Shown here: piece after piece, positions 4,221-45,569 of the stretch
How positions within the stretch are numbered: position 1 is the first letter of the stretch
Layout: each line of letters starts with the position of its first letter
From: Phormidesmis priestleyi ULC007
Lineage (GTDB): Bacteria; Cyanobacteriota; Cyanobacteriia; Leptolyngbyales; Leptolyngbyaceae
Reading direction: 5' to 3'
Assembly (NCBI RefSeq): GCF_001895925.1
Contig: NZ_MPPI01000012.1
Span: forward strand, 1-64,000
DNA: 64,000 nt
Translations under genes and position numbers: made by a program
Notes under the pieces: model-generated
Seen by the model: the letters and a program-made list of their open reading frames with translations, nothing else
Told to the model about the DNA's origin: nothing
The model's database searches: none

Positions 4221-4398
4221 AAGAGAAACATTAAAAGTAAGACCCTTAGTCACAAATACAGACTGAAGCTTTGAAAACTGGGTTAGGTTGCAGGTGATAA
4301 TAGGTGAACTGAAGACTGTTTCTTCAGCAGCACGACTCAGTTGTTACCTCTCTTAATGATATCGACAGGCGCTTTAACCTGTTTCACTCTTCAAACTT

Positions 4399-5409
4399 AT
4401 GACAAGGCAGCGAGTTCTTTCTGGCATTCAAACCACGGGCTATCTTCACCTCGGTAATTATCTAGGAGCCATTCGCAACTGGGTCGAAGGGCAAAGTCAA
4501 TATGATAACTACTTCTTCTTAGCAGACCTCCATGCCATTACGGTGCCCCACAACCCAGAAACGCTGGCGGCAGATACCTACACGATCGCAGCGCTCTATC
4601 TCGCTTGTGGCTTAGATTTACAATACACTACGATTTTTGTGCAGTCACACGTCCCGGCGCACACCGAGTTTGCCTGGTTGTTAAGCTGCATTACGCCGCT
4701 CAACTGGCTAGAAGACATGATCCAGTTTAAAGAGAAAGCGGTGAAACAGGGGCAAGACGTGGGAACGGGCTTACTGACTTACCCGGTGCTGATGGCTTCT
4801 GATATTTTGCTCTATGAGCCAGATAAAGTGCCCGTCGGCGAAGATCAAAAACAGCATTTAGAACTGACTCGCGATTTAGTCGATCGGTTTAATCACAAGT
4901 TTGCCACTCCTGAACAGCCAGTTCTCAAACGTCCCGCTCCGCTGATCCGATCGGAAGGCGCACGAGTGATGAGCCTCACCGACGGCACTCGCAAAATGTC
5001 AAAGTCTGACCCGTCTGAGTTGAGCCGGATCAATTTGCTAGACCCGCCAGAGGTGATTCAAAACAAGATTAAGCGCTGCAAAACTGACCCGATTCGAGGG
5101 CTAGTGTTTGGTGATCCTGAGCGTCCTGAGTGCAACAACCTGCTGACGCTGTATATGATTTTGTCTAACCAGACCAAAGAAGCCGTTGCCGCAGAATGTC
5201 GAGAGATGGGCTGGGGGCAGTTCAAACCATTGCTGACAGAAACGATGATTAGTGCCTTGCAGCCAATCCAAGAAAAATATAAAGCCATCATGGATGACCA
5301 GGGATATCTAGAATCGGTGCTGCGAAGCGGACGCGAAAAAGCATCTGCGATCGCCAACGAAACCCTAACCAAAGCGAAGAAAGCAATGGGATATACCTTG
5401 CCTCTTTAA
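4399..5409 (+). CDS. trpS: Tryptophanyl-tRNA synthetase
   Basis: The enzyme charges tRNA-Trp with tryptophan using ATP. It is a class I synthetase of 336 aa, the usual bacterial length. The HIGH-like signature is TGYLHLGNY (about 13-21) and the KMSKS loop is RKMSKSDPSE (about 198-207). LNWLEDMIQFKEK and GEDQKQHLELTRDLV are further family motifs. It starts at ATG 4399, 178 bases from the divergent reductase. Confidence 0.97.
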   Translation: MTRQRVLSGIQTTGYLHLGNYLGAIRNWVEGQSQYDNYFFLADLHAITVPHNPETLAADTYTIAALYLACGLDLQYTTIFVQSHVPAHTEFAWLLSCITPLNWLEDMIQFKEKAVKQGQDVGTGLLTYPVLMASDILLYEPDKVPVGEDQKQHLELTRDLVDRFNHKFATPEQPVLKRPAPLIRSEGARVMSLTDGTRKMSKSDPSELSRINLLDPPEVIQNKIKRCKTDPIRGLVFGDPERPECNNLLTLYMILSNQTKEAVAAECREMGWGQFKPLLTETMISALQPIQEKYKAIMDDQGYLESVLRSGREKASAIANETLTKAKKAMGYTLPL

Positions 5410-5710
5410 AAAAGAGAACGGTAGAAACTCCGGCGTTGCAAAATCAGAGGGGTCGAATGGCTGTAGGGGTAGCGCCCCCGTGCCTACCCCTGACGGAGGG
5501 CAACCACGTAGAGATTGCCCCTACTCAGATCATCCCTACGTTCAGGAATGCCAAAATTCAGACCATTTACCGATGAAGAATCCTGGATTACTCAGGATCT
5601 ATGAGGGTATGCGGTGCTGAACTTTAAGTTCCTGTAAATTGCTGGGATCAGCTTCAGATTTTGAACCAATCACCGATACCCTATAGCTAAAGCTCTAACC
5701 CCGATCGCCC
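5410..5710. repeat. Intergenic region with an inverted-end repeat (5463-5524)
   Basis: The 300-base gap between trpS and the metF-like gene has no credible gene. At 5463-5524 a unit begins GTAGGGG and ends CCCCTAC, with internal CGCCCCCGTGCC and GGAGGGCAACC blocks. It resembles the short intergenic repeats common in filamentous cyanobacteria. Nothing else is evident. Confidence 0.55.
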
Positions 5711-6640
5711 ATGTCTCACCCTTCACACCCGCTCCCATCGTTCCGCTCTGCTGCTCAGTCTGGCGAATTTTTGATCACGGCTGAAGTGGCTCCTCCTAAA
5801 GGCGGCAACCCTGCTCATATGCTGGAGATGGCGCAACTGCTCAAAGGGCGAGTCCATGCGGTGAATATCACAGACGGCAGTCGAGCCGTGATGCGGATGT
5901 GTTCGCTCGTGTCGTCAGCGCTGCTGCTGCAACAGGGCATCGAGCCGATTTGCCAAGTGGCGTGCCGCGATCGCAACAGCATCAGCTTACAAGCCGATCT
6001 GCTCGGTGCCCACGCACTAGGGATCTACAACATTTTGGCGTTGACGGGCGACCCCGTGAAGGCAGGCGATCATGTGGATGCAAAAGCCGTGTTTGAGCTA
6101 GAGTCAGTGCGCTTGCTGCAACTGATCGCCAAGCTCAATTTAGGCGCTGATTGGAAGGATCAGCCTCTAACTGATGGAGAAACCAGTCTATTTGTCGGCG
6201 CGGCAGTTGACCCGCAGTGTGGGAGTTGGTCAGGTTTACAGCGTCGGTTTGAGCGCAAGGTAGAGGCGGGGGCGCAATTTTTTCAGAGTCAGCTAATTTC
6301 GGACTTCGATCGCTTAGAAAAATTTATGGATCACCTCGGTTCACCTGCCGGAAAGCCCATCTTAGCGGGAATCTTTCTGCTCAAGTCTGCAAAAAATGCT
6401 CGATTTATTAATCGCTGTGTGCCAGGAGTTCAAATTCCAGAACACATTATCGATCGCTTAGAACGCGCCTCTGATCCTCTGCAAGAAGGCGTGATGATTG
6501 CCGCAGAACAGGTGCAAACCGCTCGCCAACTCTGTCAAGGCGTACACATGATGGCGGTGAAGCGAGAAGATCTGATTCCGCAAATTCTTGACCTGGCAGG
6601 AGTCGCACCGTTGAGTAAAGCAACTCCTGTTACGGCGTGA
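5711..6640 (+). CDS. metF: Methylenetetrahydrofolate reductase family protein
   Basis: The protein (309 aa) is an FAD-containing TIM barrel that reduces 5,10-methylene-THF to 5-methyl-THF for methionine synthesis. Family motifs are ITAEVAPPKGGN near the N-terminus, the active-site block VNITDGSRAVMRM, CQVACRDRN, ILALTGDP (about 115-122) and GAAVDP. The C-terminal part PILAGIFLLKSA matches the end of the barrel. Its length suits the bacterial single-domain form. It precedes the twin ATPase genes by 76 bases, which may be a coincidence of spacing. Confidence 0.85.
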   Translation: MSHPSHPLPSFRSAAQSGEFLITAEVAPPKGGNPAHMLEMAQLLKGRVHAVNITDGSRAVMRMCSLVSSALLLQQGIEPICQVACRDRNSISLQADLLGAHALGIYNILALTGDPVKAGDHVDAKAVFELESVRLLQLIAKLNLGADWKDQPLTDGETSLFVGAAVDPQCGSWSGLQRRFERKVEAGAQFFQSQLISDFDRLEKFMDHLGSPAGKPILAGIFLLKSAKNARFINRCVPGVQIPEHIIDRLERASDPLQEGVMIAAEQVQTARQLCQGVHMMAVKREDLIPQILDLAGVAPLSKATPVTA

Positions 6641-6716
6641 GTAGCTAATCTAAAGGGGTTCGGGCTACGATCGAAGGTATAAAGCACTGCCCTACTCCGA
6701 TCCAGGAGAACTGCCG

Positions 6717-8018
6717 ATGACTGAAAGCCCGATCACTCAAAATCCCTTTATTGTCGGTAGACCCGTTCCGCCAGATTGTTTTGCGGGGCGCACCTCTGCG
6801 ATCGAGACCGCGTTTGATCAGATTCTCAGTCGCAGCAATCTCGCCATCTGGGGCGGGCCTGGCATTGGCAAATCGTCGTTTTTAGAACTTCTAGCTTCCC
6901 CCAAAGCGTGGCAACTGAGAGGACATGATCCCTCTAGCGCAGTTATCGTTTTGCTGAGTTGTTTGAGCATTACTCCATTTAGTGCTGTCAACTTCTGGCG
7001 CGAGATCATGCTGCTTACCCAAGAGGCTTTAGAAAAAGAGCCAGTATTGCAGACAGAAGTTGGTAAGTTCTTGGAGCAGGGCAACACGACGAAGGACGGG
7101 CTACGATCGATGCTGCGATATCTAGGCAAGCAAAACAAATTTCTCGTGCTGCTGGTCGATGATTATGATGCGGCGCTGCGATCGCAAGCAGGCTATAGCG
7201 ATAGTGACATTGCTGTTTTCTTGAGCGATTGCCGAAACATTGCTTCTCACTCCAGAGAGCGGCAGTTTCTCTCGATGGTCGTCACTTCACTGCGACGGCT
7301 TAATGAACTTGGGCCTAAATTAAAACCCGATGGCTCTCCGTGGTATAACCACTATTTATTTCAGCCTCTCAAGCCTTTTGACGAGACAGAAGTGGCGGCG
7401 CTGCTAGGCTGTATGCCGATGACCCCAGCGCTCAGAGACGGCATTCGAGAGATTGCTGACGGCAACCCGGCTTTGCTGCAAAACGCCGGACATCTGCTCT
7501 ATCGTGAACTGCGGACGGGTCACATTCCCAACGCGGAGGCATTTGCAAAAGATTTTCAGCGCACCACCGTTCACTATTTTGAAGACATGTGGAATCTGGC
7601 TAGTGAGATCGAGCAAACGCTGATGATGCTGATTGCCCTCTGTGGGTTAAAAGGTCGCCTGCATAAAAAACACTATGATCTAGGTGACACCAATCTTGTC
7701 TTTAGCCAAAAAGAACGAGAATTGACCGATTTAGAAGAGCGAGGCGTGGTGATATCGCAAATGCAGGACAGCCAAAAGTCCTATGAGTTTGCCTCTTCAA
7801 TGATGGAATGGTGGGTGGTCAAGGAAATTGAAAACAGCACCGAAGAGACCCTTCACGATCGCCAAAAAGGCTTCCTCAATCTCATGAGTCACAAACAGGC
7901 AGAGAACGTTACAAAAGCAATTCGCTGGTTGTGGCAGCATAGAGAAGAGGTGCCATCTATCCTGGAATGGTTGGGAAAAGTGTCGGCAGCATTGCCGAAG
8001 GGATTGATCCAGGGTTAA
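6717..8018 (+). CDS. STAND-like P-loop ATPase, first gene of an operon
   Basis: The protein has 433 aa. Its N-terminal motif NPFIVGRPVPPDCFAGR is followed by Walker A GGPGIGKSS (about 46-54) and Walker B LVLLVDDYDAA (about 143-153). A winged-helix-like helical region follows around 280-345 (LTDLEERGVVIS). This order (NTPase, then helical sensor) matches AAA+/STAND ATPases used in signalling and conflict systems. No effector or WD40/TPR repeats are present in this partner. The next gene begins 26 bases downstream with a similar N-terminus, so the two probably form a unit. The biochemical role is unknown. Confidence 0.75.
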   Translation: MTESPITQNPFIVGRPVPPDCFAGRTSAIETAFDQILSRSNLAIWGGPGIGKSSFLELLASPKAWQLRGHDPSSAVIVLLSCLSITPFSAVNFWREIMLLTQEALEKEPVLQTEVGKFLEQGNTTKDGLRSMLRYLGKQNKFLVLLVDDYDAALRSQAGYSDSDIAVFLSDCRNIASHSRERQFLSMVVTSLRRLNELGPKLKPDGSPWYNHYLFQPLKPFDETEVAALLGCMPMTPALRDGIREIADGNPALLQNAGHLLYRELRTGHIPNAEAFAKDFQRTTVHYFEDMWNLASEIEQTLMMLIALCGLKGRLHKKHYDLGDTNLVFSQKERELTDLEERGVVISQMQDSQKSYEFASSMMEWWVVKEIENSTEETLHDRQKGFLNLMSHKQAENVTKAIRWLWQHREEVPSILEWLGKVSAALPKGLIQG

Positions 8019-8044
8019 TCTAGCCAAATAGCTAAAACTTATCT

Positions 8045-9967
8045 ATGCGTTTTCCGATCGCTCGGAGAAATCCTTACATTATCGGTCGCCCGATTACGGA
8101 GCCGAACTTATTTTTTGGACGCGAGAGTCTGTTTCGGTTCGTGGAAGACAGCCTCTACAAGGGTTCTCAAGTGATTTTGCTGCACGGTCAGCGCCGCATT
8201 GGGAAGTCATCGGTGCTGGCGCAGATTCCTAATTTCGTTGACTTGGAACAGTTTGCCTTTGTTCCGCTTTCACTAGAGGGCGACAGCCAAAAACCCCTCG
8301 GTGAAGTTTTGCACGAACTCGCGAGAGATTCGCTAGAGCACTTTAGTTTGATGGACGCGATCGCACTGCCCTCGATCGCAGAACTAGAAGCTGATCCCAG
8401 GACTTTTGTCGATCGTTTCCTTCTACAACTGCGCCAAGCCCTCAACGTTCAAAATCTAGTGCTGTTGCTCGACGAATTTGACGCGTTCTACAGCCTTAAA
8501 GTAGCAGCAGGACATCTGTTTCAATATCTCCAATCGGAGGTTTATCACCATCCTGATCTCTACATCATTCCAGTGGTGGGGCGGCAACTCAACGACTTGC
8601 CCGAACTAGTGAGCCTATTTCGTGAGGCACCCAATCAAGAAGTTGGGCTACTCGATCGCCGCAGTGCAGAACGGCTGATCACCAAACCTGCCGAGGGTTT
8701 GCTGGACTATAGCCAAGACGCGATCGACGCAATTTTAGAACTTTCAGCAGGTCATCCTTACTTTACGCAAGTGGTTTGTTTTGCCGTGTTTTCTCACGCC
8801 AGAGAAGAAAATCGCTGGCAGGTGACTCGCGCCGATGTTGACAGCATTGTCGAAAAAGCCCTCGAACTCGGTGAAGGCGGGTTAGCTTGGTTTTGGGATG
8901 GATTGCCGATTCCAGAACGAGTCGTTTTCGCAGCCGCCGCCGAAGTGCCTGAGACGAAACTGATCGCTGATCAGGCTGACGATGCCTCAATTTTAAGTTT
9001 CACCCAAGAAGAGCCACTAGCGCTGCTGCGCGATCTCGGAGTCAGTCTCACGCCGCCTCTACACGATGCTGTGTTTCATCTCTCTGACTGGAAGTTTCTG
9101 CAACCTGTGGGGTCAAATCGACCCACCGGAACCAGCATTCCGCCCAGAATTGCCACGTTTCGAGTGACGATCGAGTTAGTCAGGCGATGGTTGGTCAGAC
9201 GACACGCCCTCCAGCACGAAATTTGGGAACTAGAGCGGCTTGACCCCGAAATTGACCATCTCTATCAAGAAATCAAAAAAGCGCGTCCGTTTGGAGTCAC
9301 CCTGAGCATTATCAGTCGGCTCAGTCCCATTTTGGCGGCAAACCCCAACCACTTTGGGGCCCTGTTTGATCTCGCAGAGTGCGTGATGGAGATTCGCAAC
9401 TTTAGTCAAGCGGTGAAATATTACGATCGTGCCTACCGCGTTGATCCCGTGCGGGCAAAAGATGGGTTTCTCCAAGCCTTATGGGAATATGGCGAAGAAC
9501 TTGGAGATGAAGGACATTTAGAAGAAGCAAAAGCAGCATTAAAGCAAGCCTTGGAAATTGCTCCAGATAACCCAGAGATCTATGAGCTGCTGGAGAAGAT
9601 CTATAAAGAAGAGAAATATAGTGGCTACTTCAAGACAGTCTTTCCACCGAGTTTGAACCCTGTGAGCGATCGCGATTTCCCTTCAGAAGCCGTGTCAGAG
9701 ATTGTCTTAGAGAGCGATTTGACAAACTTGCAAAACAAGTTTAGCGACGTGTGGAAACTCGTCGAAGATAACGCGCCTTCTGAGGTGAAAGACCGAGCGC
9801 TAGAGCGATTAGAAGAACTCAAAGAAATCTTCACGACTCAAGAGCTAAATCTGACGACGATGGCTTATGTGCGGCAATGGTTCGAGAAGAATCTGCCTGC
9901 GCCACTCTACGAAGCTGTGAGCCGCTTTTTAGAAGAGATCATCTCGAAAGCCAGTAATGTGAATTAA
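8045..9967 (+). CDS. STAND-like ATPase with C-terminal TPR repeats, second gene of the operon
   Basis: The protein has 640 aa. The N-terminus [20 protein letters not shown] parallels the upstream gene. Walker A is GQRRIGKSS (about 48-56) and Walker [12 protein letters not shown] (about 138-148). [13 protein letters not shown] (about 235-247) is the HPY motif typical of this ATPase group. From about 440 to 525 there are TPR-like helical pairs ([21 protein letters not shown], then [20 protein letters not shown]). An acidic helical tail ends the protein. TPRs usually bind partner proteins, so this subunit may sense or recruit and the upstream one may assist. The stop overlaps the stop of convergent msrA by four bases. 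Confidence 0.78.
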
Positions 9968-10617
9968 CTGACTTCGACACTAGGAAAGCAAACCTTCGTG
10001 CCACCTAGCCCACAATATCCACCGAGATTTTTAGCAAGATACTGCTGGTGATAGGCTTCTGCGTAGTAAAACTCAGGCGCATCTATAATCTCAGTCGAAA
10101 TCTCTCCGTGCCCTTCTTGCTTTAGCGCTTGCTGATAGACATCGCGAGACGCTTCTGCGAGTCGGCGCTGCTCGTCAGAATAGACGTAGATGCCCGATCG
10201 ATACTGCGTTCCAACATCGTTACCTTGGCGCATCCCTTGCGTTGGGTTGTGGCTCTCCCAAAAGACTTTCAGCAGGTCTTCATAGCTGACCACGCTGGGG
10301 TCGAAGACGACTAGAACGACTTCGTTATGTCCAGTTCTCCCTGAGCAGACTTCTTGATAAGTAGGGTTTGGGGTAGCTCCGGCTGCGTATCCGACTGCGG
10401 TCGTGAAGACCCCGTTTTGCTGCCAAAACTTACGCTCTGCGCCCCAAAAACAGCCAAAGCCAAATAGAGCCGTCTGCATTCCGGCTGGGAATGGCGGCTG
10501 GAGTGGGTTGCCGTTGACATAGTGGCTTGAAGGCACTGGCATCTTTTCTGCCCGCCCTGGTAAGGCTTCTTCAGGGGTGGGCAAGCTCTGCTTTTTGCCA
10601 AATCCGAATAACACCAT
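9964..10617 (-). CDS. msrA: Peptide-methionine (S)-S-oxide reductase
   Basis: The enzyme reduces methionine-S-sulfoxide in oxidised proteins. It has 217 aa, with the catalytic signature [13 protein letters not shown] around residue 55; the cysteine in GCFWG is the nucleophile. [13 protein letters not shown] and [18 protein letters not shown] are further conserved blocks. The roughly 50-residue N-terminal extension is typical of cyanobacterial and plant MsrA. Glycine- and cysteine-containing YCGLGG lies near the C-terminus, where resolving cysteines occur in the family. Confidence 0.95.
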
Positions 10618-10819
10618 GCGTTTTAACTCTATTTTCGAGATGAATCTTTACACGTCCTTATATTAACGTATCTCTTTGCAGGCTCAAGTGTTGGGAACCG
10701 TCCGATCGTCCAACTTATTTTTATAAAGGGTTAGTCTCTAATCCTCCATACCGCGTATAACATTCTTTTTAGGGGTCGTCTGTCATCTCTATCACGGCAA
10801 TTTTCGTTTCTCTGAAATC

Positions 10820-12193
10820 ATGAAACCCTTTTCAATTTCTAGGGCGTTTTTTCAAATCAAATGGGGAACGGTGGGCGCGATCGGGCTGCTGTCAGGAGCG
10901 GTAGCGCTGCTGATCTGCGGGGCATGGCTGAGTGTAGAATTTATTCTCGATCCGCGATCGGTGATTTGGCTCAATCAATATCTGCCAGAAGGGTCAAAAA
11001 TTTTAGTCGTAGGGTCGGATGACCTGAGAACCCTAACAGAATTGCAGGCAGCCCTGAAGAAAACCGGACGCACGACTGGCGACCCGCTTTTATTAGAAAC
11101 CAATCTAAAAGCGGCTAAAAAATCTTCAGATCTGCTGTTGCCCGTGTTGACTCGCAGAGAATCCTGTGACCTTGATTGCGATCGCGTTACAGAGCTAAGA
11201 GTTTATCGTCCGATTCTTGAGAGTCATCGTCGGGGCAAACAAGACTATCTTCAGCTAATCAGTCAGCTTCCGATCACTGGGGTAGACGAGTCATTTGTGC
11301 TGGCACCGTTTGCAGAGGCGGGCGGCGACGATCAAGGCTCAACCCGTGCCCTGCCCCTGACCACACTGCAACGCTTTGAAGATAAAGCGCCATCCCAGGG
11401 CGTTTGGCTCAACCTGAGCGGGCAGCGATCGCAAGGAGACCACTCAGTTGCCTATGGAGAAATTGTTCACTACAACCCCGGTCAGACTCACTTGAGCATT
11501 TTGCTGCGCTGGACAAGCCCGATCGGAGAAGCTCCAGTCTGGCAAAAACGAGCGAAGGGCATGCTGTCTACGCTGGTCGTCAATCAATCGATCGGGCTAG
11601 AACCCCGTTTTGAAGCTTATCAGGTAAGAGCGCGCAAGTTTGTCCCCGATCCGCTACAGCTTCTCCCGGTTTCGCTCACCGAACCCGCGTTAGACAATGG
11701 TGCGTTTGTCGATGCTCTTTTTTTAGCGCGAAACGGCTTGTGGTCAACCGCTTTGGAGTTTTTGCGATCGGTTAAAAATCGCCGAGTAGGGTGGTCAGCC
11801 AATGCCCAAGCGCAAATGGATTTGGTAGAGCGCCACGCTCAAGTCACAAAATCGCAAGCCGAAAAACCTTGGGCAAATGTGAGTCAACAGGTTTTAGTCA
11901 ATCTCGTGGATGGACGATGGGCAAAAGCAACGCAAGTGCTGCAAGCGTCCCCGAACGATCGAGACGAGATCACTAGTCTTTTAAAGAGTGACTCAGGGCG
12001 GTTGTGGAAGCGAATCAGCGCCCTGCTGCGGGTGAATCCAACTCGGCAGGATGTGCAAACTTGGGGAGCGCTGATTCTGATGGCGCAGCAAGATAAACCG
12101 AGGGCGATCGCGTGGTTAAAGAAACAACCCCAAGAGTCTCCAGCAAGCCGCGCTCAAATCACCAAGTTATTAAACCAAATAGACGCACTTTAG
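10820..12193 (+). CDS. Membrane-anchored protein of unknown function
   Basis: The protein has 457 aa. A single hydrophobic span (about 17-42) near the N-terminus suggests an inner-membrane anchor with the bulk outside the cytoplasm. The central part is beta-rich and contains the dicysteine motif CDLDC. The C-terminal third is helical with an alanine/leucine repeat pattern (FLARNGLWSTALEFL; VDGRWAKATQVLQ) resembling degenerate TPR helices. I do not recognise a named family. It lies between msrA and the porin, on the porin strand but 363 bases away. Confidence 0.7.
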   Translation: MKPFSISRAFFQIKWGTVGAIGLLSGAVALLICGAWLSVEFILDPRSVIWLNQYLPEGSKILVVGSDDLRTLTELQAALKKTGRTTGDPLLLETNLKAAKKSSDLLLPVLTRRESCDLDCDRVTELRVYRPILESHRRGKQDYLQLISQLPITGVDESFVLAPFAEAGGDDQGSTRALPLTTLQRFEDKAPSQGVWLNLSGQRSQGDHSVAYGEIVHYNPGQTHLSILLRWTSPIGEAPVWQKRAKGMLSTLVVNQSIGLEPRFEAYQVRARKFVPDPLQLLPVSLTEPALDNGAFVDALFLARNGLWSTALEFLRSVKNRRVGWSANAQAQMDLVERHAQVTKSQAEKPWANVSQQVLVNLVDGRWAKATQVLQASPNDRDEITSLLKSDSGRLWKRISALLRVNPTRQDVQTWGALILMAQQDKPRAIAWLKKQPQESPASRAQITKLLNQIDAL

Positions 12194-12556
12194 ACACAAT
12201 TCTTAGCTACAAGCGCCTCAACACCCTTAAAAGAGAAGAAGCAATTCTGTGAAAAGCCTCTCAATAAGGCGTACTGATCAGCAGTAATAAAGCAAGATCT
12301 ATACTCGTTCTTGATCCCCTAGGGGGGGATATCAGAGGGTCTTGGTGAGCCAGTGGCTCTAAGCTTATTGAGAATTAATGGCAAAAAAGCTTGACAAGGT
12401 TCATCAAAACATAATAAGACGGTTAAGAGTTATCGTCCAAGCAAGCGAATAAGAACGATAATTATTATCATTTTGTAGATTTGATTGGCTTTCATTGAGT
12501 TGAGCAAATCCACTAACGCAACCCATTCATTCACCTGATGTGAGGCCACGACCCCT
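12194..12556 (+). other. Leader region of the iron porin, with short hairpins
   Basis: This gap holds no gene. It contains a hairpin ATCCCC/GGGGAT around 12316-12332, a short GAGCC/GGCTC hairpin at 12347-12359 and the Fur box listed separately. The stretch downstream of the Fur box is the likely 5' untranslated region of the porin. Confidence 0.45.
12457..12475 (+). promoter_or_regulatory. Fur box upstream of the iron-uptake porin
   Basis: GATAATTATTATCATTTTG matches the classical 19-base Fur consensus GATAATGATAATCATTATC at 15 positions. It lies 82 bases before the porin ATG. In cyanobacteria FurA represses iron-uptake genes when iron is plentiful, so this fits iron-regulated transcription of the porin. 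The SLH-only relative at 244-702 has no comparable box. Confidence 0.7.
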
Positions 12557-14212
12557 ATGACGAACCTTCTTTTCAAGACTTTCTGGCTAAACCCAGCGAT
12601 CGTGGCAGCCAGTCTAACCGTTTCATCGGTGGCAACTGCGGCTGACGTTCCAGCAGTGGTGTCTGCTAAGACTGAGCCGATGCAGCTTGCTCAAGCCGCC
12701 GAGACAACCTTAGAGTCTGAGGTCAGTGATTCGAGCGAGACTGCCTTATCTCAAGTCACCTCAGTTTCTCAACTGTCAGATGTGCGCCCGACTGACTGGG
12801 CATTTCAGGCGCTGCAATCTTTAGTTGAGCGCTATGGCTGCATTGTGGGATATCCCGACAAAACCTTTCGCGGCAATCGCGCTACGACTCGCTTTGAGTT
12901 TGCGGCAGGCTTAAATGCGTGTCTCGATCGCATCAATGAACTGATTGCTGCCGCCACGGCTGATTTAGTCAAGAAAGAAGACCTTGCAATTCTGCAAAGA
13001 CTCCAGGAAGAATTTGCTGTAGAACTGGCAACTTTGCGCGGTCGAGTTGATGCGCTAGAAGCGCGCACGGGAGCGTTAGAAAAGCAGCAATTTTCGACGA
13101 CCACCAAGCTCAGTGGAGAAGTGGTGATCGGCATTGCAGGGGTTGCAGCAGGCAGAACGATCAGTGGTCGAGAAGTCTCGAAGAATACGATCATCGGCGA
13201 TCGCGTTCGTCTCAACTTTGACACCAGCTTCACGGGCAATGACTTGCTGAGAACCCGTCTACAGGCTTTCAACCTAGCAGCGCTGCCTACGGATAGAGTA
13301 AATGGCGACTTACTGACACGGGAAGGAAACTTCCGGTTTGCAGCCGATGGTGATAACTCAGTCGCAATTGATGCCCTGCTCTATCAGTTTCCTTTAGGTA
13401 GCAAGACGACGGTCACGATCGAAGCAAATGCCGGAGCGATCGACGATTTCACCGACACGCTCAATCCCTATTTAGATGGGGACGGCGCAACAGGTGCCTT
13501 GACCCACTTTGGCACTCGCAACTCGATCTACTATCTGGTGAATGGGGCAGGTTTGGGTCTCAGACACTCGTTTAGCGATGCTTTGGAACTCAGCTTAGGC
13601 TATCTGGCCAACGATCCGGCTAACCCAGCTAATGGAGCGGGGTTGTTTAACGGGTCGTATGGCGCGATCGCCCAGTTGACCTTTAAGCCCAGCGAAGCCC
13701 TAGCATTAGGGTTAACCTACATTCATGCCTACAACAACGACTTTACTGCAAACGGCAGCGTCGGCAGTGACCTTGCCAACTTTCGCGAAAGCACAGGGGA
13801 AGCCTTCTCTACCGATGCCTACGGCATTGAAGCGTCCTTTCAGCTAAGTCCTAAGATTAATATCAACGGCTCTGTTGGCTATACCAACGCTCAGGCTGTA
13901 ACAGGTGGCAGAGGCAGTTTTGATATCTGGAACTGGCAAGTCGGTTTGGCGTTTCCCGACCTGGGCAAAAAAGGCAACCTGGCAGGCATTATCGTCGGTC
14001 AAGAACCTAAAGTCACAGGCAGTCGTGGTGCGTTAGGGCAAGCTTTTGGGCGCGATCGTGACACTTCTCTGCACGTCGAAGGCTTCTATCAATATCAGTT
14101 GACTGACAACATTGCCCTCACTCCTGGCATTGTTTGGCTGACGGCTCCCAATCATGACAACCGCAATAATGATGTGGTGATTGGCACCGTTCGTGCAACG
14201 TTCACGTTCTAG
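12557..14212 (+). CDS. Iron uptake porin (SLH + OprB family)
   Basis: The protein has 551 aa. A signal peptide (about 1-28) ends near VATAA. One SLH domain (about 75-140) binds wall-linked polymer. A short coiled coil (about 140-175, LQRLQEEFAVELATLRGRVDALE region) leads into an OprB-type beta-barrel (about 180-551) ending in aromatic ATFTF, the usual outer-membrane insertion signal. Characterised homologues transport inorganic iron across the cyanobacterial outer membrane. The upstream Fur box agrees. A strong terminator follows at 14224-14261. Confidence 0.92.
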   Translation: MTNLLFKTFWLNPAIVAASLTVSSVATAADVPAVVSAKTEPMQLAQAAETTLESEVSDSSETALSQVTSVSQLSDVRPTDWAFQALQSLVERYGCIVGYPDKTFRGNRATTRFEFAAGLNACLDRINELIAAATADLVKKEDLAILQRLQEEFAVELATLRGRVDALEARTGALEKQQFSTTTKLSGEVVIGIAGVAAGRTISGREVSKNTIIGDRVRLNFDTSFTGNDLLRTRLQAFNLAALPTDRVNGDLLTREGNFRFAADGDNSVAIDALLYQFPLGSKTTVTIEANAGAIDDFTDTLNPYLDGDGATGALTHFGTRNSIYYLVNGAGLGLRHSFSDALELSLGYLANDPANPANGAGLFNGSYGAIAQLTFKPSEALALGLTYIHAYNNDFTANGSVGSDLANFRESTGEAFSTDAYGIEASFQLSPKININGSVGYTNAQAVTGGRGSFDIWNWQVGLAFPDLGKKGNLAGIIVGQEPKVTGSRGALGQAFGRDRDTSLHVEGFYQYQLTDNIALTPGIVWLTAPNHDNRNNDVVIGTVRATFTF

Positions 14213-38818: not shown

Positions 38819-39500
38819 CTTAGCTCCTTACACACCACACCAATAACACGCGCTATCATATCAAGGATTGCTTTTTCACGGTATAGCTAAATGAGAATTT
38901 CTTTCTCTTTGAATTCAAAACCGCGAAATTGCCTTTTTGATTAACTGAACCAGAAATTCAATTTTCCCAACTCCTTTAGCTGATAAACATCAGCAGCGAC
39001 ATTGACCCGATAACTACACCCCGAAGTCAGTGAATTCCTGATAAAAATTCATCAGGTTCTAAGAGGTTTTTAGAGTTGAAATGAGTCGTCATTCAAAATA
39101 GCCTAAATTATTCAAATCAGCACACTTATAAAAAAAATAATGCTGTAGTCTTGCTGATTGCGGAGGACACCCTAAGCCAACCGACGCTTGATCGAGTGAT
39201 CTGGTCAGAAGCGATCGCAGATGACCTGGCTGGCGATCGTTGGTCATCTCGCTTTTTCTGTCACAGATATTGAATCGAGCCGCTCAGGATACTCCTAATC
39301 TGGTTTCCAAAGGGGTGAGAGCATACATCTCGTCTCACCGTTTCTACGAATAGTCAAGCATTTTCTCAATTTCTGACCCTATGATCCCCGACTCCTGATC
39401 CCTCTTTTCCAGCCCTTGTTTTCCTCTAATAATTTCTTTACCTTTTACGATATGATGTGTCTCATCAATAGGTATTTATCTACAGAGGGCAACCGCAGTC
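38819..39500. other. Long leader region of gap2 with terminator-like hairpins
   Basis: The 680-base gap between murC and gap2 has no gene. It contains CCTGAT/ATCAGG (39037-39056), a strong stem GATGACC/GGTCATC with extra GCGA/TCGC pairing followed by TTTTT (39215-39257), and GGTGAGA/TCTCACC (39314-39340). The order suggests an upstream transcript with its own terminator, or attenuation in the gap2 leader. Confidence 0.5.
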
Positions 39501-40511
39501 ATGAGAGTAGCGATTAACGGCTTTGGACGCATCGGGCGAAACTTCATGCGTTGCTGGGCGGGCAGGGAGAACAGTCAGATAGAAGTAGTCGCCATTAACG
39601 ATACCTCTGACCCCAAAACAAACGCTCATTTGCTGACTTATGACACGATGTTGGGCAAGTTCAATGCCGATGTCAGCGCCGATGAAAACACCATCACCGT
39701 CAACGGTCATGTGATTAAGTGTACGAGCGATCGCAACCCAGAAAACTTGCCTTGGAAAGATTGGGGAATCGATTTAATCATCGAATCTACTGGCGTGTTC
39801 ATCAGCAAAGAAGGTGCATCTAAGCACATCAATGCTGGCGCGAAAAAAGTTTTGATCACCGCTCCTGGTAAAGGCGACGATGGCACTTTTGTGGTCGGCG
39901 TAAACCATCAAGATTATGACCATCACAAGCACAACATTATTAGTAATGCAAGCTGCACCACTAACTGTCTTGCCCCCGTTGCCAAAGTCATTCACGAAAA
40001 TTTTGGCATCATCAAAGGCACAATGACCACGACTCACAGCTACACAGGCGACCAACGCTTGCTAGATGCGAGTCACCGCGATCCGCGTCGGGCACGGGCT
40101 GCCGCAATGAACATTGTTCCCACGTCTACGGGCGCGGCAAAAGCTGTGGCTCTGGTGCTACCTGAATTGGCAGGCAAGCTGAACGGCATTGCAATGCGGG
40201 TTCCAACTCCGAATGTGTCGGTGGTTGATTTGGTCGTTCAGGTTGAGAAAGCGACGATCGCCGAGCAGGTCAATGAAGTGCTGAGAGCCGCCGCAGAAGG
40301 CCCAATGAAAGGAATTCTCAAGTATTGCGATCTGCCGTTAGTGTCGAGTGACCATGCCGGGACAGATGAGTCTTCGATCATTGACGCAGCGCTCACGATG
40401 GTGATGGGCGGTGACATGGTGAAGGTGATCGCCTGGTATGACAACGAGTGGGGCTATAGCCAACGGGTAGTTGACTTGGCTGAAATTGTGGCTCAAAAAT
40501 GGGTTGCTTAA
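39501..40511 (+). CDS. gap2: Glyceraldehyde-3-phosphate dehydrogenase, Calvin-cycle (gap2) type
   Basis: The 336-aa enzyme has the Rossmann motif [15 protein letters not shown], the active-site cysteine in [13 protein letters not shown] (about 152) and the C-terminal [24 protein letters not shown] blocks. The sequence [14 protein letters not shown] (about 33-46) is the form found in the plastid/cyanobacterial NADP(H)-using branch, working in carbon fixation. I call gap2 by this similarity; gap1 would be glycolytic. Confidence 0.93.
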
Positions 40512-40536
40512 GATCGGTTAGACATTAGCTTGAACG

Positions 40537-40566
40537 CCCTCAATTTCCGTTGGAGTTGGGGGTTTT
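40537..40566 (+). terminator. Probable terminator after gap2
   Basis: CCCTCAA and TTGGGGG pair with one G-T wobble across a 16-base loop, followed by TTTTC. It is 26 bases past the gap2 stop codon. Confidence 0.5.
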
Positions 40567-40599
40567 CTATATCGTTGAGTTAGCAGACGAGAAATTGCC

Positions 40600-40980
40600 T
40601 CAGGCGGTTCTTTTGCAATCATTGGAACCCTTCCTGGTATTGCAATCGGGGCAGAGTAAGCGCAGATTCTTCACACAGGTCGCTAATTCTGGAAACTTAG
40701 AGAGGGGCTGAACGTGATCAATGTGAGAGCCTTTAACTTGAATCACAAAGCTACAACTAGCACAGCAGCCGCGTTGACGCTTGTGTTGCTTCTCTTTCCA
40801 CATTTTTCCGTCTTCTGTTGCTTTCCAACGCTCAAACTTTGCGCGAGGTGAATAGTACTGCCTGATTTCTTGTACATCTTTCTCAAAATCTTTGGTTCGT
40901 TGATCTAGCTTATTTTTGAGCAATATTAAGCTACGTGCTAAGTCTGAGAAGTCGGGGAATGAATGAGGAGGTGTACTCAT
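40600..40980 (-). CDS. HNH endonuclease domain protein (third gene of a cassette)
   Basis: The 126-aa protein has an N-terminal helical region and a C-terminal HNH domain. CCASCSFVIQVKGSHIDHVQPLS holds the first CxxC and the H-D-H triad (about 75-95). LLCPDCNTRKG (about 109-119) holds the second CxxC and the N...K end, so the metal-binding and catalytic residues are complete. The start overlaps the stop of the upstream gene by ATGA. The cassette of three genes lies alone in an accessory stretch, divergent from small DUF genes. A nuclease with two unknown partners suggests a defence or selfish module; this is an inference. Confidence 0.8.
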   Translation of the reverse strand: MSTPPHSFPDFSDLARSLILLKNKLDQRTKDFEKDVQEIRQYYSPRAKFERWKATEDGKMWKEKQHKRQRGCCASCSFVIQVKGSHIDHVQPLSKFPELATCVKNLRLLCPDCNTRKGSNDCKRTA

Positions 40981-41387
40981 GTTGTCTCAGGTTTGGTATG
41001 AGATTTTACTTTGATTTCGGCATCTATCTTCAGAGCAGCTAACGAGGAATTCGTTTTTGAAATTGTGGTCATCAGTTCTCGCGTCATTCGACTGAGTTCG
41101 GGATCAGTCGAAGTACCAAAAGCAACAGGAACAACATTTCCGATCAAATCTAGCAAGATATCTAAAGCTGTCTTGAGAGTCTCGCGAGTTGTAGCCTTGA
41201 TTCTCGATCGCTGCATATACTGCCGCAGCGAACCTATAACTTCAGCAGCAGAATATAAGTAGGTAGAGCCTTGCTGCGTAGAAGGTTTCAATACCTTCGT
41301 GATGGCAGCTGCATGGTAGAGCGATAACCCAAGTCCGCGAAGCTGTTTTCGCGTTACGGTCTTGAGTTCTGAAGAAGGTTTTGGCAT
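40977..41387 (-). CDS. Unknown protein of the HNH cassette (second gene)
   Basis: From ATG 41387 the protein has 136 aa (MPKPSSELKTVTRKQLRGLG). A region RKQLRGLGLSLYHAAAITK resembles a short helix-turn-helix or DNA-binding helix pair. The rest is helical (ALDILLDLIGNVVP). It is translationally coupled to the HNH gene (ATGA). The frame extends upstream to TTG 41405, but the ATG is preferred. No family is recognised. Confidence 0.65.
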   Translation of the reverse strand: MPKPSSELKTVTRKQLRGLGLSLYHAAAITKVLKPSTQQGSTYLYSAAEVIGSLRQYMQRSRIKATTRETLKTALDILLDLIGNVVPVAFGTSTDPELSRMTRELMTTISKTNSSLAALKIDAEIKVKSHTKPETT

Positions 41388-41411
41388 CGTGAGTTTAACA
41401 GGCAAATAGAT

Positions 41412-41843
41412 TTACATGGTTTTTGATGAATCGTCTTCGTCTTGCAAATATTCGTTGTATGAAGTTAACAAAGCCTCAATCCAAGCATCTCTCAATCCAA
41501 TTTTTTGAGCGATTTTGTAAACACGACTGATAATTCCAACAAACTGACTACGTTGGAGATTCAGATCTTCCTCATATTGTTCAACTTTTTTAGCGTGGGT
41601 AATTTTTATTTTTTCGATTTCATTCGTCTTTTTAGTAACTTGAGCTTTCTGAGCAGCTTGCTTACGTTGTCGCTCAGATAGTACTTCACCTGCATAGTCA
41701 GCTAAAGTCAAAGCTAGGGTAAATTCGTCGTCATCCGCGACTAAATCGAGGTTGACTCCAATCGATTCATAAGCTCGTTTAGCATCTTCCCGTGTCCAGC
41801 CAAGCTTCACCGCAAAATCAATCGCCCGTTTTTTAGAAACCAT
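41412..41843 (-). CDS. Unknown coiled-coil protein of the HNH cassette (first gene)
   Basis: The 143-aa protein starts MVSKKRAIDFAVKLGWTRED, a helical region. A lysine-rich coiled coil follows (about 58-95, RQRKQAAQKAQVTKKTNEIE). The C-terminal part is helical and acidic (LQDEDDSSKTM). It lies 24 bases before the next gene. It is probably the first gene of the transcript. No family is recognised. Confidence 0.65.
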   Translation of the reverse strand: MVSKKRAIDFAVKLGWTREDAKRAYESIGVNLDLVADDDEFTLALTLADYAGEVLSERQRKQAAQKAQVTKKTNEIEKIKITHAKKVEQYEEDLNLQRSQFVGIISRVYKIAQKIGLRDAWIEALLTSYNEYLQDEDDSSKTM

Positions 41844-42024
41844 GAGACACTGCCTATTTCAAAGCCTGTTACCACTCAAATATACTGTCAACAGGGTATG
41901 ACACCAGGATTCCCAAAGCCAATGAAGTTGAATCAATAAATTATCTGTTTCTAAGCCGATCAAACGAACTACTGCCGTATCGATTTGAAAGAGATCGTTC
42001 CATAGAATCTAAATGCGTTAGAAA

Positions 42025-42591
42025 TTGCACTCAAGCTTCGCTGCGGTAGAAGAGCAAACGATCGCGCTAGTCTTTCAATTACACAATGAGCCGATCGCTG
42101 CCAGCAAGTGTATCTCTGATTTGCAAACCAAAATTAAACAGAATACTCTCTCGGTTGTCGCTACTTGCCAATCTCAAGCCGAATTGGACTTCATCTTTCC
42201 CGAAATCACTCGCATTCATCACCAAGATTTGCAGGTTTTAGAAGTGTGGCAAACTCAAATTGATGTAATCCAAGCCCTTTCACCTAGCGAATTACAGCAG
42301 CTTCCTGATCTGAGCCTTGAAGAGTTTGACGCGATCGAGCCTGAGATTTTACAAATCCCTCCAGAAGTGGCACTGTATGAAACGCTGCGATCTCAAACTG
42401 ATTTTCGGGGATTGCGGGATCAATTACGCTTCATGATCAAGCCTGAGTCACGGCAAGAATATGAGGTGGAGATCGGTCATCTAGCTCCTAAAGCGGGTTA
42501 CCCGGCACTTGTGCCGTCGAACTGGCAAGAGGCTTCAGATTTAACCGTTGCTAATCTCTACTGGTATTTCAAAAATCTTAAAAGTGCCTAA
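42025..42591 (+). CDS. Protein of unknown function with a doubtful start
   Basis: A 188-aa frame (LFQLHNEPIAASKCI is not present as such; the seen start is HSSFAAVEEQTIALVFQLHN). The only upstream ATG, at 42013, is followed two codons later by TAG (42019-42021) in the same frame, so translation must begin at TTG 42025 or the gene is damaged. The C-terminus APKAGYPALVPSNWQEAS looks globular and conserved-like. A terminator-like hairpin and T-run follow the stop. No family is recognised. Confidence 0.5.
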   Translation: MHSSFAAVEEQTIALVFQLHNEPIAASKCISDLQTKIKQNTLSVVATCQSQAELDFIFPEITRIHHQDLQVLEVWQTQIDVIQALSPSELQQLPDLSLEEFDAIEPEILQIPPEVALYETLRSQTDFRGLRDQLRFMIKPESRQEYEVEIGHLAPKAGYPALVPSNWQEASDLTVANLYWYFKNLKSA

Positions 42592-42616
42592 CTCGATCGG
42601 AGTTGAGGGCTTTTTT
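42587..42616 (+). terminator. Probable terminator
   Basis: AACTC/GAGTT with a GATCG loop, extended by GCC/GGC pairing, is followed by TTTTTT. It overlaps the end of the preceding gene at 42025-42591. Confidence 0.55.
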
Positions 42617-42628
42617 GTAGGTTGAATT

Positions 42629-42844
42629 ATGTTAGCTTCGAGAAGCAAGGTTGAGGGGTTGATTAGTATTCCTACATCAGAGCAGAAAACGCAGTGCTAC
42701 TTGTTGTGCTGCCGATTCACCAAATTCTACCTGCCTGTGAATATAGTCCGATTTGATGAACGTACAGGGAACATATTCTTTCTAGCCGGTGAAGAGAACG
42801 ATATCGAAATCTACCCCAACGGCAAATGGAGGTACATCAGATGA
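42629..42844 (+). CDS. DUF6888-like small protein
   Basis: A 71-aa protein with CYLLCCRFTKFYLPVNIVRF and the end motif EIYPNGKWRYI. I recognise this pattern as the cyanobacterial DUF6888 family, of unknown function. Its stop overlaps the start of the next gene (ATGA at 42841-42844), which is the usual partner order in this family pair. No RBS is strong; the ATG at 42629 is the first. Confidence 0.7.
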   Translation: MLASRSKVEGLISIPTSEQKTQCYLLCCRFTKFYLPVNIVRFDERTGNIFFLAGEENDIEIYPNGKWRYIR

Positions 42845-43065
42845 GCCAGCCAAACTTTCAAGCGATGAGTCAGAAAGATTTACGTGATTATGTTCTCGCT
42901 CATCGAGACGATCAAGATGCATTCTACGCTTATGTAGACAGGCTTCATGCTGAGGGTAATTGGGTTGAGATGCCTGCCCTTCAGTCAGAGCAAGATCTAG
43001 AGAATTATCCTGAGTTCACAGAGCATATTCGTAAGAGTTCTGAAAGACGAAACAATCCAGCTTAA
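42841..43065 (+). CDS. DUF6887-like small protein
   Basis: From ATG 42841 the 74-aa protein begins MSQPNFQAMSQKDLRDYVLA and contains DDQDAFYAYVDRLHAEGNW. This is the typical DUF6887 pattern. It is translationally coupled to the DUF6888-like gene. The pair recurs in cyanobacteria and may be toxin-antitoxin-like, but I know of no experiment. Confidence 0.75.
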   Translation: MSQPNFQAMSQKDLRDYVLAHRDDQDAFYAYVDRLHAEGNWVEMPALQSEQDLENYPEFTEHIRKSSERRNNPA

Positions 43066-43079
43066 AAGCTTCTTTAAAG

Positions 43080-43289
43080 ATGAAATTTGACTTCACCAAG
43101 ATGACGAAAGTTGAGCTACGGGCTTACGTTGTTGCACATCCTAATGATCAGGCAGCCTTTTATGCGTTTGTTGATCGCTTCACATCCGATGCATCTCCGG
43201 CAATGTCCACCCCGATCGCATCTCAGGCAGATGTTGAGGCGATCGCAAAGCTAGTTGAACAAAAAGTAGAACAAACGAAGATGAGCTAG
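43080..43289 (+). CDS. Second DUF6887-like small protein
   Basis: A 69-aa paralogue of the upstream gene: KMTKVELRAYVVAHPNDQAA and FYAFVDRF correspond to the same motif, but the EGNW part is missing and the C-terminus differs (VEAIAKLVEQKVEQT). It lies 14 bases downstream in the same operon. Its stop overlaps the stop of convergent thiL. Confidence 0.65.
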   Translation: MKFDFTKMTKVELRAYVVAHPNDQAAFYAFVDRFTSDASPAMSTPIASQADVEAIAKLVEQKVEQTKMS

Positions 43290-44281
43290 TCGCTACTAAA
43301 GTGCTGGAAGCCTTGCTCTAGGGTCAAAATCTCATCGGGTGTTTCTTGAGTGAAATCGATGACGCGAATATCGGAATCAGACGTAATGGTGCCGACGATC
43401 GCCGCTGCTCCTCCCAATCGCTCCACTAACTTTTGAGCCGCTGACCTCTGCAAACACAGAACTAACTCAAAATCTTCTCCACCGTAAAGCGCCCACTTCA
43501 TCGCCTTTTCTGAAGAAGCCCATCGTTTCAAAGCGGGATGAATCGGGATTTTTTGACGATCGAGCCGCGCCCCAACTCCACTCGCTCGACAAATTTGCAC
43601 GATCGCGTCTGCCAGTCCATCGCTGCTATCCATTCCAGAAATCCGTGTTTCAGGAAGACTCGGAAGGATATCTAATCGAGGGTTAGGATATTGATGCGCC
43701 TGGATTAATGAGATGCGATCGTCCTGACTCAATTCCTGACCCAATTCAGGATGCAGCAAGAGTTCTAATCCTGCGCGGGAAGAACCGTGAAAACCCGTGA
43801 CTAAGATTGCGTCTCCGGGTTGGGCGGTGGCACGGCGAATCACTCTCGTAGGATCGACTTGTCCAAAGGCGGTGATGGCAACGGTGATTACGGGCGATCG
43901 ACAAAGATCACCTCCCACAATTACGGTTCCATACTTCTGCAAACAGCCCGTAATGCCGCGATACAAATCTTCCACCCAACTCACTAAAACTTCACCTGGC
44001 AGTCCCAACCCAACAGTGATTCCTAACGGTGAAGCCCCCATTGCGGCGAGATCGGAGAGATTTGCCGCCGCCGATCGCCACCCAACTGATTCAGGTGGGG
44101 TAGTCTGATTGCTGAAGTGAACGCGATCGACCAACACATCGGAGGTGACAACGAGCAGCATTCCGGATTCGGTAGGCAACACAGCCGCATCGTCACCTAC
44201 TACAGTTGACGGACAAAAGGACTGCACTCGCTTTAGCAGTCCCTGTTCTCCAAGGTTTTGAACCGTCAGAGAATCGCTCAT
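43286..44281 (-). CDS. thiL: Thiamine-monophosphate kinase
   Basis: The enzyme phosphorylates thiamine phosphate to thiamine diphosphate. The 331-aa PurM-like protein shows DDAAVL near the N-terminus, VTSDVLVDRVHF, WRSAAANLSDLAAMGASPLG and VGGDLCRSP, with the C-terminal GMDSSDGLADA and YGGEDFELVL motifs. These bind Mg-ATP and substrate. The length is normal. It sits next to the cyclophilin gene on the same strand, stop to start with no gap. Confidence 0.95.
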   Translation of the reverse strand: MSDSLTVQNLGEQGLLKRVQSFCPSTVVGDDAAVLPTESGMLLVVTSDVLVDRVHFSNQTTPPESVGWRSAAANLSDLAAMGASPLGITVGLGLPGEVLVSWVEDLYRGITGCLQKYGTVIVGGDLCRSPVITVAITAFGQVDPTRVIRRATAQPGDAILVTGFHGSSRAGLELLLHPELGQELSQDDRISLIQAHQYPNPRLDILPSLPETRISGMDSSDGLADAIVQICRASGVGARLDRQKIPIHPALKRWASSEKAMKWALYGGEDFELVLCLQRSAAQKLVERLGGAAAIVGTITSDSDIRVIDFTQETPDEILTLEQGFQHFSSD

Positions 44282-45406
44282 CTAAGCGGCTTTGGGTTCA
44301 ACTAGGTTGTCTAAGCCATCTACAACTTTCATGGACTCGATCGTGTCTCCGGCTTTCAATTTTTCCAGCACTTCTCGCCCTTCTGTCACAAATCCAAAGA
44401 TCGCATAGCGACCGTCGAGTAAGTTTAAGCCTGCGGGGGTAAGTTCTGGCTCAAATAAGAAGAAGAAAAACTGAGAAGAACCGCCGTTGGGGTCTTCACC
44501 CGGACGAGCCATCGCCAAAGCGCCATACGCTGAGAAGGGTAGAACAGGCTGATCTAAATAGCGTCCTGCATCTTCTAAGGTGATGCCATAAAGTGGCTCC
44601 TTGTCGCCTTTCACCAAAATCTCTAGGGGAACAGAACGATATTTTTTAGTTGCGGGATCGATAAAGCCAACCTCAGATCCTGGCGGGTCGCCGATTTGCA
44701 GCACATAAGAATCTTCGGCTCTCGTAAATTTCAAGCCATCGTAAAAGCCACGCTGCACGAGATCCACAAAATTTCCAGCCGTGACTGGGGCGCTATAGCC
44801 ATCGAGAACGATCGTCAAATCACCGTGATCTGTTTTGGCGACAACGGTAGCACGTCCCTTAAGTTGAGGCAGATTGCTATATGCTTCGGGCACCTCATAA
44901 GGAAACTTTTGCACCATCAATTCTTCGAGACGTGAAACTAGAGTTAGCAAATCCGAACGCTGCGATCGTGTCTGCTCTTTATCTTTCGCTTCTGCACTGG
45001 TTTGAAGTTGCTCAACGCCCGTCTTTAATTTTTCAATAATTGCCTCTGCTTGAGGTTTTTTGTCATCAGGAATGGATGCCAATAGTTGAGCGGGACGATC
45101 GTTCAAAATGCTATACGCCTGTTTGATATCGCTAACCACAGATCCCCAACGACGATTGGCCCGCAGTTGGGTGGTGATATCTTCTAGGCTAGATTGCAGC
45201 TTGCGAACCTCAGAATTATCGATCGGCAATGAGTAGCGAAGCAGCGCTTCTGGGTTGACGATCGGATTTCCAGGCGGCAATGCCTGAGCCGGGAGACTCC
45301 ATCCCCACAGGCTTAGACAAACCATCGCGATCGCCATCCCTTTGAGCAAGCCACCTTTCAGCCAACCCAGACCTTGAGTGAGTGTCAAACGATTCCAAAA
45401 AGACAT
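44282..45406 (-). CDS. TLP40/CYP38-type lumenal cyclophilin (peptidyl-prolyl isomerase)
   Basis: From ATG 45406 the protein has 374 aa; a longer upstream frame is not supported, and GGGAAAGAG lies just before this ATG. A signal or thylakoid-transfer segment (about 18-42, ending PAQA-LPPG) leads to a helical domain (about 60-165, typical of TLP40) and the C-terminal cyclophilin domain (about 190-365) with LTIVLDGYSAPVTAGNFVDLV and GSSQFFFFLFEPELTPAGLN. Plant CYP38/TLP40 supports photosystem II assembly. It lies upstream of thiL. Confidence 0.88.
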   Translation of the reverse strand: MSFWNRLTLTQGLGWLKGGLLKGMAIAMVCLSLWGWSLPAQALPPGNPIVNPEALLRYSLPIDNSEVRKLQSSLEDITTQLRANRRWGSVVSDIKQAYSILNDRPAQLLASIPDDKKPQAEAIIEKLKTGVEQLQTSAEAKDKEQTRSQRSDLLTLVSRLEELMVQKFPYEVPEAYSNLPQLKGRATVVAKTDHGDLTIVLDGYSAPVTAGNFVDLVQRGFYDGLKFTRAEDSYVLQIGDPPGSEVGFIDPATKKYRSVPLEILVKGDKEPLYGITLEDAGRYLDQPVLPFSAYGALAMARPGEDPNGGSSQFFFFLFEPELTPAGLNLLDGRYAIFGFVTEGREVLEKLKAGDTIESMKVVDGLDNLVEPKAA

Positions 45407-45569
45407 AATCTCTTTCCCCGCGTGCTTTAAAACCCCTTTTCGATTGTGCCATGTTAGGGGTCGGTGCTTTGTGGTGAATCGTGACGAACAACCCCAATCA
45501 AAAGCGATTAAAAACGATCGCTGGGCGGTAAAATAAAGTGCCGAACATTCTCCCCCACTGTCATCACTC

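Follow-up and report, generated by a model that had tools for sequence, protein, structure and literature searches.

Among described systems, Septu and retron I-A (Ec78-type) come closest to the gene cassette reported here, because in both a small separate HNH effector (PtuB / TIGR02646) is accompanied by partner proteins. The cassette has an effector of this kind, but it contains neither the PtuA ATPase nor a reverse transcriptase, and its HNH protein has an N-terminus in common with a partner protein (B or C, below). Type II toxin-antitoxin operons are a further point of comparison. In such antitoxin-toxin pairs, the antitoxin gene typically precedes and overlaps the toxin gene, and the antitoxin typically combines a DNA-binding N-terminus with a partner-binding C-terminus. 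The cassette resembles these operons in its overlapping, antitoxin-then-toxin-like order and in a partner whose N-terminus is predicted to be DNA-binding-like and which also has a C-terminal helix. It differs from them by a near-constant front gene with exchangeable halves, by a nuclease of the HNH fold and in that no conserved operator repeat was found. Finally, the Pfam family DUF3173 (PF11372) is matched weakly by two members of the B family (best E 4.8e-4), which hints at a similar helix-turn-helix N-terminus; however, there is no shared context or full-length similarity, and the B protein studied here is itself unmatched.

Gene content of the cassette

We studied a 64,000-nucleotide stretch of the Phormidesmis priestleyi ULC007 genome (hereafter the window; contig NZ_MPPI01000012.1, positions 1 to 64,000). 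As the first-pass annotation of this sequence had stated, three closely spaced minus-strand ORFs (A, B and HNH) run from position 41843 to 40600. The trio is an undescribed, conserved and horizontally moving gene set of Cyanobacteria and some of their viruses, and no description of it was found in the literature searched, mostly papers available without subscription. Gene A (41412 to 41843, minus strand) encodes 143 amino acids and comprises an N-terminal two-helix module carrying WTxxDAxRA, a conserved RQxxQxAQKxxVT motif, a long helix and a type I C-terminal module, which reads DPWIExLL in the family and DAWIEALL in the window copy. Gene B (40977 to 41387, minus strand) encodes 136 amino acids from the ATG at 41387, a likelier start than the TTG at 41405 with which the ORF (40977 to 41405) opens. 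The HNH gene (40600 to 40980, minus strand; 126 amino acids) begins with a helix common with B and continues into a zinc-binding HNH domain. Direct reading of the letters (ACAACATGAGTAC) bore out the reported ATGA overlap between the TGA stop of B and the ATG start of HNH. All three genes are under purifying selection between the window and the 80%-identical copy in G024, a genome of another genus of the same family (NG86 dN/dS of 0.16 for A, 0.18 for B and 0.18 for HNH).

The nuclease is complete, as had been claimed. It falls in the HNH superfamily by its match to Pfam PF01844 (E 1.3e-9, 38.5 bits against a cut-off of 21.4), and its CxxC, ..IDH.., N and CxxCN elements are all intact (C73, C76, D88-H89, N105, C110, C113 and N114). 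Among 24 HNH homologues, H89, N105, N114, C73, C76 and C113 are invariant, and D88 and C110 are nearly so. Of 68 family copies, 63 carry the full motif and another three depart from it only by longer CxxC spacing; the gene is thus intact in nearly all copies, and the decayed relic that the first-pass annotation had kept in view does not describe it. A group I intron, intein or IS relic was rejected because the three ORFs are intact and subject to purifying selection, and the block common with G024 showed no terminal repeats.

In PADLOC, the best match of the HNH domain is PtuB (E 4.3e-10), and in NCBIfam it is TIGR02646 (E 4.5e-7, 30 bits against a cut-off of 52.15). The PtuB equivalog NF041761 gave 23.7 bits against a cut-off of 150, and solved PtuB chains also match the domain. 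Judged from these matches, the cassette HNH is only a distant relative of PtuB and of the retron HNH proteins. We rejected assignment to a known defence system because PADLOC and NCBIfam match the HNH domain only, below the NCBIfam cut-offs. No PtuA ATPase was found: neither A nor B gave an ATPase match in Pfam, PADLOC or NCBIfam, and no ATPase gene lies within the cassette at the family loci. A search for known RNA families near the cassette (Rfam, 39000 to 45500) returned no match. Generic viral HNH relatives (80 loci) were without A, B or C partners, except for a single phage trio. An HNH gene on a Methylobacterium plasmid sits near a DNA methyltransferase and a helicase, with no A- or B-like gene among the annotated names there.

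The profile searches proposed in the first-pass annotation, which had described two unrecognised partners and no fitting system name, agree with that description for the partners and link the nuclease only distantly to PtuB and TIGR02646. Neither A nor B had an above-threshold match in Pfam, PADLOC, NCBIfam or PHROGs, nor did C, an alternative middle protein, in the libraries searched. The first protein had been called coiled-coil and the second helical, in line with a low-confidence structure model of A that is mostly one long helix and with a helical B. A UBA match in one member (E 0.018) is a weak suggestion that the A N-terminus may be UBA-like. In an AF2 model of B, built from an alignment of only three sequences, residues 10-82 form a winged-helix-like domain (pLDDT about 90 over 11-80) and residues 96-130 a long helix. 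A Foldseek search with this model against the PDB gave nothing below E 1, with MerR-type CarA, CarH and GlnR among the top, non-significant matches. From its modelled fold, B is probably a DNA-binding partner of the HNH nuclease.

Flanks of the cassette and its origin

In G030, the other genome of the genus that we compared, the DNA on both sides of the cassette is 88-90% identical to the window. Alignment of the two genomes showed that the interval 40565 to 42051 (no strand assigned) is absent from G030, which carries in its place 2.6 kb with a MazEF-like pair, a 340-aa ORF and the beginning of a 427-aa gene. This gene is whole in G030, and the window keeps only its last 188 amino acids as a truncated plus-strand ORF (42025 to 42591), a 3' remnant; alignment suggests that the arrival of the cassette probably broke the gene. 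In G024, the trio is found at 80% DNA identity in a different place with unrelated flanks. The block homologous between the two copies (40635 to 42011, minus strand, lower limit approximate) starts about 170 bp upstream of A, includes the three genes and ends near the HNH end. By inspection, this block has no terminal repeats or transposon-like ends.

The accessory origin proposed in the first-pass annotation has its real evidence in the lower G+C content of the cassette (42.6% against 48.9%) and in the replacement relative to the sister genome. The other argument offered for it, the lack of GCGATCGC, is weak evidence (0 sites against 1.5 expected), and HIP1 depletion as a sign of foreign origin was set aside, the sites being too few to judge. 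Of the two housekeeping flanks that had been named, gap2 adjoins the cassette, but thiL (43286 to 44281) is set apart by four small ORFs. Three small plus-strand genes lie between the cassette and thiL (42629 to 43289), one of DUF6888 and two tandem copies of DUF6887. The MazEF-like pair of G030 (L200, 5453-6161) is downstream of gap2, where the window has the HNH cassette, and this site may be a hotspot for accessory genes.

Two types of cassette and the exchangeable halves of gene A

A profile search with A gave 24 positive genomes among 390 Cyanophyceae; in one of them the match is weak and falls within a 986-aa ORF. Among the 23 loci inspected after this search, the middle gene is B in fourteen and an unrelated gene, C, in nine. 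We call A-B-HNH, the form in the window, type I and A-C-HNH type II. The B profile was positive in 26 of 390 genomes (30 loci inspected) and the C profile in 63 of 291, weak partial matches included (47 loci inspected). The first-pass annotation had allowed that the partners might occur mostly apart from the nuclease gene. Instead, HNH adjoins A at 23/23 loci, C at 46/47 and B at 23/30; six of the other B loci are solitary and one is broken. At most C loci, the first gene is A2, a different and longer coiled-coil protein, and some B loci also have other first genes, including a third type in L097, L098 and L100. These differing first genes at B and C loci indicate that the system consists of a variable first gene and two linked genes. 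Orphan B-like genes without an adjoining HNH or A occur at L093, L095, L101, L102, L105 and L106, and they could be captured regulators or antitoxin relics.

The three genes occur in the same order across the class Cyanophyceae. Conservation across unrelated hosts, as the first-pass annotation had expected, is found within this class and, in the scope of our searches, only there. Strong C matches are present in roughly one in six sampled Cyanophyceae genomes, and the B form is additional to these. Full-length matches to the A2 profile are confined to Cyanophyceae within the phylum sample, and one pattern-based scan for B in chromosomes of other phyla returned only the G024 copy. Searching with tblastn for A and B gave nothing in phage records and Gloeothece only among plasmids, and none of A, B and C had a match in 50,697 phage records.

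Profile comparisons of A were made half by half. Type I and type II A proteins are clearly homologous over their N-terminal parts (E 4.5e-37), as are type II A and A2 over their C-terminal parts (E 1e-35). The A2 N-terminus is unrelated to A, and the type I C-terminus is unrelated to that of type II and A2, all other combinations giving E 0.1 or worse. Thus only the C-terminus tracks whether the middle gene is B or C; by these profile comparisons, A is a chimera of a partner-matched C-terminal half and an N-terminal half exchanged across types. Judging by percentage identities, the A protein of L055 is a clear natural hybrid, with an N-terminus 55-74% identical to type II and 40-53% to type I, a type I C-terminus and B as partner. 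Within type II, the N-terminal type changes about four times on the C+HNH tree (bootstrap 4-5), although the AU test does not reject a single clade (p 0.44), so that repeated N-terminal exchange there is likely, though not proven. The pairwise distance sets of A, B and HNH correlate with one another across 13 type I loci (r 0.56-0.57, Mantel p ≤0.0015), a correlation that could partly come from shared host ancestry.

The middle gene and the nuclease have a helix in common. Profile comparisons pair the C-terminal helix of B (residues 96-130) with the helix at the N-terminus of the type I nuclease (E 7e-5, score 32.8). By the same method, the N-terminus of the type II nuclease matches the C-terminal part of C (LEELFLEADRIGNKYLT; E 1.4e-6, score 44.4). 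The crossed pairs match weakly, at corresponding positions (E 0.14 and 0.0096, scores 14.8 and 21.6), and column-shuffled controls (60 per pair) reached at most 18.3 overall and 18.0 for B with the type I HNH. The two matches point to a docking element, by which partner and nuclease would either pair mutually or bind one surface, presumably on A. Phage portal-like proteins of two viral contigs (L075:4285-7434 and L076:3838-6807) also contain, as a fusion, the C-terminal domain of C, with its GNKY motif and, in L075, IDRQFP after it; a third viral contig has the motif in a small protein (L077:2744-3109). In the portal-like proteins, this domain could be a docking tag, a trigger or a decoy.

Genomic settings and candidate functions

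Chromosomal copies of the cassette are often alone beside ordinary genes (gap2 in the window, folC in G030), and plasmid copies are found in Gloeothece and Acaryochloris. In a viral contig of 39.7 kb, all three genes stand behind an XRE-type repressor gene, and IMG/VR has only one viral contig with A. One cassette, in G162, adjoins terminase, portal and capsid genes, and those in L062 and L060 come after phage-type repressors. Frequent proximity to defence islands, another expectation of the first-pass annotation, was not seen in a scan of cassette loci only: around 18 type I and 22 type II loci, most genes are ordinary chromosomal ones and no consistent defence island appears, the few scattered others being restriction-modification genes, methyltransferases, a DpdF-like protein, integrases, ParAB, toxin-antitoxin and phage genes.

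We tentatively favor, at somewhat short of an even chance, a mobile three-protein nuclease module, in which an HNH effector complex would serve in conflict or defence and A would be a modular sensor-adaptor. A conflict function, anti-phage defence for instance, would suit the modularity of A, the intact catalytic motif and the mobility, and the cassette may be a new immune or selfish module; the many type II copies that sit alone among housekeeping genes count against this reading. The anti-phage or selfish module of the first-pass annotation stands as a conserved, horizontally moving unit, but defence is so far unsupported, as the neighbours are not consistently defence genes. We infer from sequence comparisons that A, B or C and HNH form a complex, and by extension trigger recognition, DNA cleavage and a benefit in defence or element competition. 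A and its relatives would act as coiled-coil adaptors: the C-terminal half would hold the B/HNH or C/HNH pair, and the N-terminal half would recognize a variable trigger, for example a component of a phage or a competing element. The matching helix would let B (or C) and HNH sit on one scaffold or pair with each other, restraining the nuclease, and the winged helix of B would bring the nuclease to DNA. On triggering, the HNH domain would be released or directed to cut DNA, either the invader's or the cell's own.

The main rival is a three-component toxin-antitoxin or addiction module, with HNH as toxin, B as DNA-binding antitoxin and A as chaperone or second regulator, which would persist by addiction and not by protecting the cell. 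The order of B then HNH, the ATGA overlap and the layout of B, with its predicted DNA-binding-like N-terminus and partner-like C-terminus, all suit it, as do the copies adjoining ParAB, the MazEF-like pair in the replaced G030 DNA and the six B loci without HNH, as orphan antitoxins would be. However, we looked for a conserved operator-like inverted repeat upstream of A and found none, the C protein of type II has no recognized DNA-binding domain, and almost every copy has an extra front gene, evolving by half exchange, that simple pairs do not need. We consider this reading unlikely. Still less probable is a phage-born accessory set (moron) that works for the phage, for instance in packaging, in processing its genome or in keeping out other phages, with chromosomal copies as relics or domesticated genes. 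Although the trio behind a repressor in the viral contig, the cassettes beside structural genes (G162) or after phage-type repressors (L062, L060) and the portal fusions of the C domain would accord with it, the single viral contig with A in IMG/VR and the 50,697 phage records free of A, B and C would not; chromosomal copies mostly stand alone and intact with no phage genes, and the window trio evolves under purifying selection.

A self-mobile element seems very unlikely to us; in this reading, the nuclease would be a homing-type endonuclease, free-standing and equipped with its own DNA-binding partner, and would propagate by cutting an empty site. An HNH nuclease with a winged-helix-like partner, a patchy distribution, different flanks for 80%-identical copies and the local replacement of DNA in the window could all be read in this way. 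Against it, insertion sites vary widely, no intron, intein or conserved target site was found at loci whose flanks differ, the window copy replaced unrelated DNA, the block common with G024 is without transposon-like ends on inspection, and a homing nuclease has no need of two partners with partner-matched modules.

A further reading, improbable in our estimate, would be an undescribed class of cyanobacterial immunity in which a two-part adaptor, with an exchangeable sensor half and an effector-matched half, controls HNH through the helix common to the nuclease and its DNA-binding partner; the copy of this domain in some cyanophage portal proteins would then be either the trigger or a decoy. 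If the proposed working is true, the cassette is a widespread, previously unnamed nuclease system in a phylum with little-characterized phage defence. Since the recognition half of the natural hybrid comes from one type and its effector half from another, it would offer a simple testable case of sensor swapping, and the common helix gives direct predictions on assembly.

Some loci have unusual surroundings. In L072 (G019, 3942-13275), B-HNH lies within type I restriction-modification genes (HsdM), and a zinc-ribbon coiled-coil protein replaces A. In L068, L069 and L070, from three genomes of one family, the type II cassette comes directly after genes for a ParA-like protein, which has a restriction-type domain at its N-terminus, and for a ParB-like partner.
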